A program made the translations under genes and the position numbers. Source: a virus. Taken from it: a stretch of DNA of 64,000 nt. Every line of letters starts with the position of its first letter. The first letter of the stretch is position 1. The notes beneath the pieces were generated by a model. The model ran no database searches. It was not told the DNA's origin and saw nothing but the letters and a program-made list of their open reading frames with translations. This document shows, piece by piece, positions 10,704 through 15,397 of the stretch. Where the stretch lies: positions 1 through 64,000 of IMG/VR virus record IMGVR_UViG_3300014962_000004. The stretch is one strand, 5' to 3'.

Positions 10704-10739
10704 GATGTTCTCGCTTTCGAGTAGGTGGTGGTGCCATCC

Positions 10740-10831: not shown

Positions 10832-11320
10832 CTAGCTGGCCCGCTTCGCGCGGGCCTCGTTCTGCACCTCGACGACCCGCCCCAGCGCCTCGTAAAGCGC
10901 CTGCACGTGCTCCCGGTCGAGATCCCGGATGGTCTGCGGGGTGCCGCCGTCGTTGAACGTGATGTCGGTGATCCGGCTGTAGCCGTTGGTGAAGACGTAC
11001 AGCACGCTGTCGTCGTCGGGGTGCTGGAATTCGAGCACGGTGCGCGCAGCGCGGTCCTCGCGGACTCCCTCGCGGTTGACCCAGGCGGCGTGCTTGGCCT
11101 CGCTCCACGTCCGGTAAGTGCCGTGCTGGTGCACGTCGAAATTGCCGTTCTCGTTGACCTCTTCCTCGTTGACCCAAGTCAAGGCCCACTTGGAGTCGTC
11201 GCCGGGGTTGACCTGCTCGATGGTGTAGCGGATGCCGGTGCCGGAATCGAATGCGACCCAGCGCTCGCGGGTGCCGCCCTCGTACTTCTTCCAGTCCAGC
11301 TCGAACGGGTAAGGATTCAT
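10832..11320 (-). CDS. Protein of unknown function, 162 aa
   Basis: A soluble protein with many Trp/Tyr residues and an alternating beta pattern in its first 120 residues (WVAFDSGTGIRYTIEQV, SVLYVFTNGYSRITDI), ending in a helix with a basic tail. The ATG at 11320 is preceded by the CACCACCACCCAC leader element and GAAAGCAGAAAATC. It is the only protein gene on the transcript from the promoter at 11713-11741, and 352 bases of predicted structured RNA lie between that promoter and the start codon. Expression may therefore be controlled by that RNA, or the gene may be read through from it. Not recognised. Confidence 0.7.
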   Translation of the reverse strand: MNPYPFELDWKKYEGGTRERWVAFDSGTGIRYTIEQVNPGDDSKWALTWVNEEEVNENGNFDVHQHGTYRTWSEAKHAAWVNREGVREDRAARTVLEFQHPDDDSVLYVFTNGYSRITDITFNDGGTPQTIRDLDREHVQALYEALGRVVEVQNEARAKRAS

Positions 11321-11351
11321 GATTTTCTGCTTTCTGTGGGTGGTGGTGGCT

Positions 11352-11703
11352 CACCCCGACAACCTCAGAGAGGCATCCAGCCGGGCTTCCGGTTCCCCTA
11401 CCCTCCCCGGTTTGTGGCCACTCCCCGGTTGCTCTCAGGTACTACATTCACCCGTTCTCCTGCGTCACTCGCGGCAGATTTCGCCCTCCGCAATCCTTCA
11501 TTTAGGGATCGCCGGTCTGGGTGGTCCCCCGGATCCGACACCATACGTTGACTGGTCGGAAACTGGCTTGCGCCAGGGTACTTAACTCAGGCTTCTTGCC
11601 GGGGGCCAGACTGGTCGTGGTCGTTAACCGTCAGGGATTGGTTCACCGGGTTACTTGCACGGTACCTAGCAGGTCTGGATGTCTCTCTGAAGTTGTCGAG
11701 GTG
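11352..11703 (-). ncRNA. Candidate large structured non-coding RNA, 352 nt
   Basis: The first 29 bases (11703-11675) pair with the last 29 (11380-11352) with one A-C mismatch and two G-U wobbles. The wobbles favour the minus-strand transcript over the plus strand. Inside are a long-range helix (GTCTGG at 11611-11606 with CCAGAC at 11520-11515, plus CCCCCGG at 11605-11599 with CCGGGGG at 11532-11526), a GNRA-capped hairpin (CTGGC-GCAA-GCCAG, 11576-11563), and hairpins TCCGAC/GTCGGA (11560/11539) and GCGATCC/GGATTGC (11512/11496). A repeated-family promoter is predicted to start RNA at about 11705, one to three bases from the stem base. No credible reading frame runs through it. It could be a free RNA or a riboregulatory 5' leader of the gene at 11320. 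No intrinsic terminator follows the stem. Confidence 0.75.
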
Positions 11704-11712
11704 CTGCGATCC

Positions 11713-11741
11713 ATAGTAGGCGCTCTACAGCCTGAGCGCAA
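11713..11741 (-). promoter_or_regulatory. Repeated-family promoter of the structured RNA
   Basis: Near-consensus member: minus-strand -35 TTGCGC (11741-11736), spacer of 17 with CTGTAG, -10 TACTAT (11718-11713). It starts about 385 bases before the next reading frame, unlike the other members of the family, which lie 6-45 bases before a start codon. Confidence 0.75.
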
Positions 11742-12397: not shown

Positions 12398-12433
12398 GGT
12401 GGCCTCCTGAGTGTGGGTGGTGGGTACGTTTCG

Positions 12434-14226: not shown

Positions 14227-14484
14227 TCAGGCGGATGCCTGACCGGCGTGCGCGTTCATGACAGCGAAGTCATGGGCGCAAAATTCCTTGGCCTGAGCCA
14301 GGGTGGCCGGGTTGCCGTGGTACTTCGCGTCGCCGTACTTGCCGTCGCGAACCGAATAGATCCGCCACTGGCGACGACGGCCCTTGACCGGCGGGTCGAT
14401 GTAGTAGGCGGTGATCCCGGCGGGGTTGCCCGCCGGGTTGGCCACGTAGGTGCCGCCGCTGACGCGCGTCCAGGTGAGCGTCAT
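14227..14484 (-). CDS. Protein of unknown function, 85 aa
   Basis: Small beta-rich protein (YVANPAGNPAGITAYYI, RQWRIYSVRDGKYGDAKY) with a helical, His-containing end. The ATG overlaps the previous stop by four bases. Resembles small single-domain accessory proteins that recur in actinophages; not recognised. Confidence 0.6.
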   Translation of the reverse strand: MTLTWTRVSGGTYVANPAGNPAGITAYYIDPPVKGRRRQWRIYSVRDGKYGDAKYHGNPATLAQAKEFCAHDFAVMNAHAGQASA

Positions 14485-15323
14485 GCCGCCACCGCCGTCG
14501 CGGTCTCGATGGCCTGCTTAACCTCGGCGCGGGTGGCGGCGGGGTTGGCCAGCACGTAGCGGGCGGCGGCGATGAGGGCCTTGGCGGCATCGTATTCGTG
14601 CTTCCACGCAGCGGAGAACAGCACGTCGTACTTGTCCTCACCGGCGTAGGGGCCGAACTCCTGCACGTCGGTGGCGGGGCAGCCCTCGATGCAGATGTTG
14701 TCGCTGTTGCGGTGCTCGTAGGCCGCAAACGTCCAGCCGCCGACGGTGACCGTCAGGCCGTACTCCCGGCAGTTGTAGAACGTGTCGAAGTCGAGCTTGT
14801 CCTCCTCGCCGTAGAACGCGTCGAGCAGACCGGCCTCGCCGAACACGTCCACGGCGATGCGGACGTTCTTGTCGCTGGCGGCGACCAGGTCACGGCTGTC
14901 GGGCTGTTCGTAGCCGGGAATCGGGATGTGGTACCCGGCGCGGCGCTCGGTGGTCTCGCTGATCAGCATGGTCAGCGCGCTGCTGAAGCTGAGCGGTTCC
15001 GGCGTGATGACGGCGGAGCTGACCAGGCCGACCTCTTCGAGCTGCTCGGTCGTCCAGCCCTCGGCGCGCAGCACCGGGATGTGCGACTTGTTGAGGACAT
15101 GGACCCAGGCCCAGCCCCAGCTGGCCTTGGTCTCGCCGGACAGCAGCTGGTCGAGCAGATTGTTGATCAGGCTGTCGTGCAGCTTGCCCTTGCCGTAGGG
15201 GCTGTCGGCGATGAAGGCGCGCACGCCCTCGAAGGTCAGCTCGACGCGGGCGTAGCGGATGTTCTCGTAGTCGCCGTGATGGATGTGCTCCTGAACGGCG
15301 ATGACTTTCGGCGTGGTGGCCAT
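14481..15323 (-). CDS. Protein of unknown function, 280 aa
   Basis: A soluble acidic protein of mixed alpha/beta pattern with no catalytic motif that I recognise. It has aromatic-rich strands in the middle (WGWAWVHVLNKSHIPVL) and an Ala-rich helical C-terminus (AAKALIAAARYVLANPAATRAEVKQ). The mRNA leader carries the CACC-rich element and GAGGAGGG before ATG 15323. It is first in a two-gene unit under a near-consensus repeated-family promoter, so expression may be strong. Confidence 0.7.
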   Translation of the reverse strand: MATTPKVIAVQEHIHHGDYENIRYARVELTFEGVRAFIADSPYGKGKLHDSLINNLLDQLLSGETKASWGWAWVHVLNKSHIPVLRAEGWTTEQLEEVGLVSSAVITPEPLSFSSALTMLISETTERRAGYHIPIPGYEQPDSRDLVAASDKNVRIAVDVFGEAGLLDAFYGEEDKLDFDTFYNCREYGLTVTVGGWTFAAYEHRNSDNICIEGCPATDVQEFGPYAGEDKYDVLFSAAWKHEYDAAKALIAAARYVLANPAATRAEVKQAIETATAVAA

Positions 15324-15368
15324 GATGCCCTCCTCAGTGTGGGTGTGTGGGTGATGGTGCTGAGATCC

Positions 15369-15397
15369 ATAGTAGGCGCGCTACAGCCTGAGCGCAA
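15369..15397 (-). promoter_or_regulatory. Repeated-family promoter (consensus member)
   Basis: Minus-strand TTGCGC (15397-15392), spacer of 17 with CTGTAG, TACTAT (15374-15369). It differs from the structured-RNA promoter at only one base across the whole element. Confidence 0.75.

Follow-up and report, generated by a model that had tools for sequence, protein, structure and literature searches.

A putative self-associating structured RNA in cluster C mycobacteriophages and uncultivated phages

The minus strand of the window (i.e., the whole stretch of DNA that we analysed, 64,000 nucleotides covering positions 1 to 64,000 of the IMG/VR virus record IMGVR_UViG_3300014962_000004) carries, at 11352–11703, a 352-nt element that is non-coding and absent from the Rfam library. 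That this is a structured element under selection is close to certain, and comparison of its homologs makes it likely that it is a stand-alone, phage-encoded structural RNA that assembles with itself and belongs to a family not in Rfam. Its most informative part is one that the preliminary description, made from the letters of the sequence, had left unnoticed: the palindromic loop of a small hairpin, P4. We know of very few natural RNAs that form RNA-only assemblies.

The extent of the element is set by its helix boundaries, by its homologs and by a covariance-model match at 11392–11643 (E 7e-33, the window being one of the 19 training sequences). Stop codons occur in all three sense frames of the minus strand between 11703 and 11352 (5, 8 and 3), which agrees with the earlier statement that the segment has no credible reading frame, and the folding energy of the 352-nt strand is −156.7 kcal/mol, against −126.1 ± 5.5 for shuffled sequences (z = −5.5; 0 of 100 as good). 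As also described before, the first and last 29 bases form a terminal helix (P1; 5′ arm 11675–11703, 3′ arm 11352–11380), with 28 of the 29 positions paired, two G-U pairs and one A-C mismatch. The bulged long-range helix and the GNRA-capped hairpin of that description are present as well, the former as P3 (11599–11614 with 11512–11532) and the latter as a GCAA tetraloop hairpin (11563–11576) inside the variable P3 domain (11512–11614). Two conserved helices, P2 and P4, do not appear when the single sequence is folded to minimum energy and become visible only by comparison: P2 joins CAAUCC (11635–11640) to GGAUUG (11491–11496) and brackets two near-invariant blocks, A (UGACGGYUAACGAYCACG, 11616–11633) and B (CGAYCCCURAAYGAA, 11497–11511), whereas P4 lies near the 3′ end (11407–11428) and reads CCGG-GGA-GUGGCCAC-AAA-CCGG, its 8-nt palindromic loop (11414–11421) being the proposed site of self-association.

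When searched against Rfam, the segment matched no family at the gathering threshold, and a relaxed threshold gave chance-level hits only (Clostridiales-2, E 0.3). Homologs were found in other phages: blastn with the segment returned 190 records of phages, of which only one is not named after Mycobacterium, the cluster C mycobacteriophage carriers amount to about 190 records, and a relaxed search added the cluster C2 phages Myrna and Phabba. Among the carriers are laboratory phages of Mycobacterium smegmatis that are amenable to genetics (cluster C1, about 190 records), so that the RNA can be deleted, its loop exchanged and its pairs restored by compensation. In IMG/VR, 29 contigs matched a 21-base pattern taken from the block that is most conserved, and further patterns added more; the homologs from uncultivated phages comprise about 25 distinct sequences. 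Detailed reading covered 31 distinct members and a 32nd (L095), which was found through a pattern in the 3′ part, and core identity among homologs ranges from 46 to 82% (median 57%). The covariance model, built from 19 members, identifies exactly one complete copy per record in 30 records (E 4e-15 to 1e-36; extra partial matches fall within the same copies). L095, which had been held out, matches it at E 1.5e-33, and the model is now available to find further members.

Scanning about 85,000 cellular genomes with one pattern did not reveal the RNA, apart from two matches in GTDB contigs that lie inside apparent coding sequences and were set aside as chance, and searching a plasmid collection with one divergent member gave no match. 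Additional matches to the block B pattern (L047–L057 and L059–L071) were also rejected as chance. No description of the family was found in the open-access literature that was searched. The window virus is related to the cluster C phages, and its 150,100-base record contains an endolysin family protein, a DNA polymerase III-type polymerase and the virion protein DUF7297. Because this cluster C virion protein is present in only 9 of 25 carrier records and missing from the other 16 (many of the records being fragments), the RNA appears to cross phage lineages.

Compensatory change within the element is extensive. In a MAFFT alignment built without reference to structure, 19 of 21 internal pairs changed on both sides; paired cells reached 91.7%, compared with 60.7% after shuffling, and two-sided changes numbered 116 rather than 37 (0 of 500 shuffles), with pairing falling to about 39% when the partner was slid by one base. 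Every counted pair of P2 (7/7) and of the P4 stem (4/4; 97% paired) changes on both sides across the family, as do five of the six basal pairs of P3, which lies between blocks A and B and ranges, depending on the phage, from a short hairpin of about 16 nt to more than 110 nt. Blocks A and B are near invariant among the 31 distinct members; since they served as search patterns, this invariance is partly ascertained, although the covariation is not, and L095, found via another pattern, differs from block A by a single base, at its end.

The terminal helix recurs with unrelated sequence: P1 exceeds every shuffle in 27 of 31 genomes, yet the sequence of its 5′ arm is no more alike between genomes than expected by chance (median identity 0.26), and the distance between the helix ends varies from about 223 to 436 nt. 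A single mismatch is frequent in P1, most often A-C and located some 7–14 bp from the inner end. Where the preliminary description held that the wobbles favour the minus strand, the family comparison does not bear this out: G-U is not in excess over A-C in P1 (30 vs 37, or 16 vs 18 when only isolated mismatches are counted), so the strand is not fixed by the wobbles.

The sequence of the P4 loop changes while its self-complementarity does not. Among the 19 aligned members the palindrome is 100% self-complementary, with every cell paired and 18 cells showing two-sided change (0 of 500 shuffles). The loop is GUGCGCAC in 13 members and GUGGCCAC in 7; GUUGCAAC, GGUGCAUC (self-complementary by way of G-U), GUGCAC and AUGCAU occur twice each, and GUCCGGAC, GCUGCAGC and GGUGCACC once each. 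In most members the flanks are purines, in the arrangement GGA-palindrome-RA. On a tree of the 31 members built without the loop, in which many forks are weakly supported, the loop type changed at least 16 times, self-complementarity always being kept. L041 and L043 are near-identical over about 330 nt, yet have the loop centre swapped as a block from GGCC to CCGG.

The two central, adjacent bases of the loop also co-vary (GC in 10 members, CG in 9). A pair between neighbouring bases is sterically impossible within one chain, and homodimerisation by a symmetric kissing loop is therefore the best reading of this covariation; the same argument from adjacent bases has been used for the kissing loops of OLE and GOLLD, whose contacts were seen by cryo-EM (PMC12286853). 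Isolated loop octamers have self-duplex energies of −9.7 to −14.5 kcal/mol. From the pattern of sequence change we consider it probable that the RNA binds a second copy of itself via P4. A more speculative and rather doubtful extension is that the loop constitutes a self-recognition code that switches blockwise between incompatible palindromes, with only RNAs of the same phage assembling in a mixed infection; the element would then represent a new class of self-assembling phage RNA.

The palindrome could also be the binding site of a dimeric DNA-binding protein. If it acted as DNA, the element would be a single-stranded one with hairpins in one strand, for example an origin of replication, a recombination site or a packaging site, for which the long terminal inverted repeats, the palindromes and the single copy per genome would be suitable. 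G-U pairs are moreover rare across the family, which is unusual for an RNA, and they are not enriched over A-C, although the recurrent A-C mismatch in P1 explains part of the A-C count. Against DNA, long near-invariant single-stranded blocks are typical of RNA cores, the element is oriented with its neighbouring genes in cluster C1 and in the window, and a DNA-binding dimer leaves the freely changing stems unexplained.

Transcription signals point the same way. A −10 hexamer (TACTAT, 11713–11718) ends 9 nt before the helix base in the window, and 8 of 28 genomes have a −10-like hexamer close before this base, compared with 1.6 expected. Strong terminators follow the RNA in L024 and L036, and by eye in L058 also, so that an intrinsic terminator is recognised in two or three members only. 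That most genomes show neither signal at the expected place counts against the proposed RNA. The promoter had been described as near-consensus and as one of a repeated family: the −10 and the repetition hold, as the window holds two copies of a 29-base promoter block that differ by one mismatch, where none would be expected, but the −35-like element (TTGCGC, 11736–11741, 17-nt spacer) is weak and was not called by a sigma-70 scan. The second copy of the block (15366–15394, minus strand) lies upstream of a gene at 14481–15323. Because the −10 elements and terminators favour RNA while G-U is not above A-C, we hold that the element is very probably RNA, and a single-stranded DNA element appears unlikely. 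Transcription would begin at a promoter belonging to the RNA itself, no more than a few bases from the terminal helix. In many cluster C1 records (e.g., L006 1056–1319 and 1325–1675), protein-coding genes have been annotated over the element, in frames that differ between phages. These genes are very likely spurious, and a large conserved RNA has thus been overlooked in many genomes because of such annotations.

The preliminary description had left a choice between a dedicated structured RNA and a large riboregulator of the gene at 11320. In the latter case, a structure in the 5′ untranslated region would control translation or transcription of the gene downstream. A gene does start shortly downstream on the same strand in the window, in cluster C1 and in several other carriers. 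The identity of that gene, however, varies by genome: within 9 kb of the RNA, no genes are common to four or more carrier genomes except antisense frames over the RNA itself, and the gene in the window (10832–11320) matches no PHROG or Pfam family. Because no neighbouring gene is conserved, the RNA is probably not the leader of the gene at 11320; the long terminal helix that closes the structure and the terminators after the RNA in some members also speak against a cis-acting role, which we regard as quite improbable. The compensatory changes, the non-coding character and the −10 elements at the helix base instead strongly favour the dedicated structured RNA. As a separate observation, a GGTGGTGG-type stretch (CCACCACC on the minus strand) is found at 10720–10735, 11333–11350 and 12411–12425 of the window, just before several gene starts, and is possibly a common leader.

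As a self-assembling RNA, the element would work like GOLLD, ROOL, OLE and the retroviral dimer hairpins, and it falls within none of the families that were tested. The earlier comparison with GOLLD and ROOL was apt in kind, these being large ornate phage RNAs and self-association being probable here, although membership in either did not follow. GOLLD is often longer than 800 nt, often lies close to tRNA islands and assembles into a 14-mer (PMC12286853). It resembles the present RNA in its self-association through a palindromic loop backed by co-varying adjacent bases, which in our case is a computational result. However, the GOLLD model (RF02032) gave no match up to E 10 and none in 23 carrier records (control genomes being likewise silent), no sequence relation was seen, and our RNA, with about 223 to 436 nt between the helix ends, is shorter. 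Proximity to tRNA genes was also rare, with a tRNA near the RNA in 1 of 33 and a tmRNA in 2 of 33 loci scanned, these loci being of limited length. In two uncultivated phages (L016 10221–10616 and L029 284–609), tmRNA-like genes were predicted about 1 kb or less downstream of the RNA and on the same strand.

ROOL, an ornate RNA of phages and prophages that forms a homo-oligomeric cage (PMC12286853), differs in its length (about 660 nt), in its presence in bacterial prophages and in the lack of a match in the Rfam scan, our family not being found by the one pattern scanned against about 85,000 cellular genomes. OLE is a dimer joined by a kissing loop that is palindromic and changes from one palindrome to another (PMC12286853), as the P4 loop does; unlike our RNA it is bacterial, about 600 nt long and has known protein partners, and it gave no match. 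The HIV-1 dimer initiation site is a short stem that presents a purine-flanked 6-nt palindrome, but is part of a genomic RNA, whereas here the palindrome is usually 8 nt and sits in an apparently free-standing RNA.

In the mechanism that we propose, the fold is shown by comparison: the ends of the RNA are clamped by P1, a compact core is built from P2, P3 and the two near-invariant strands, and P4 presents its purine-flanked palindromic loop. Two copies would join through this loop by a symmetric kissing loop or a short duplex, the working form being a homodimer or a larger assembly. The RNA may then act in trans as a scaffold or decoy during infection, with its core contacting a partner that different hosts share; we give this role an even chance.

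Alternatively, the RNA could regulate in trans, as an antisense RNA or decoy, with its loop pairing to an RNA of the host or phage and the self-complementarity being coincidental. Such contacts are often initiated by loops in regulatory RNAs, and the core could bind a host factor. Yet the loop switches repeatedly while remaining self-complementary, a constraint not expected from a fixed foreign target, and this explanation seems very unlikely. Mimicry of rRNA by the conserved blocks was considered and rejected, as they match E. coli rRNA only at chance level. A motif at 11462–11472 of the window, G.GAGYGAA, which also occurs elsewhere in the family, has a chance-level resemblance (E 0.21) to a conserved 23S rRNA segment (E. 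coli 243–277) and is possibly a shared structural motif.

Least credible is a packaging-motor RNA that, like phi29 pRNA, forms a ring on the portal by loop-loop pairing: restriction to phages, single copy and probable loop-loop self-association would suit it, but phi29 pRNA is smaller, multimerises through two different complementary loops rather than one palindrome and is tied to one packaging motor, whereas two carriers of our RNA have unrelated terminases (one like that of Streptomyces phage phiC31, the other not), the virion protein DUF7297 is not shared by most carrier records, and no Rfam family matched. Returning to the self-assembling RNA proposed here, the Myrna-type members (L003, L004 and L021) have a further hairpin, in which a G-rich stem presents the palindrome GUCAUGAC; it is invariant in the three and could allow chains or rings.
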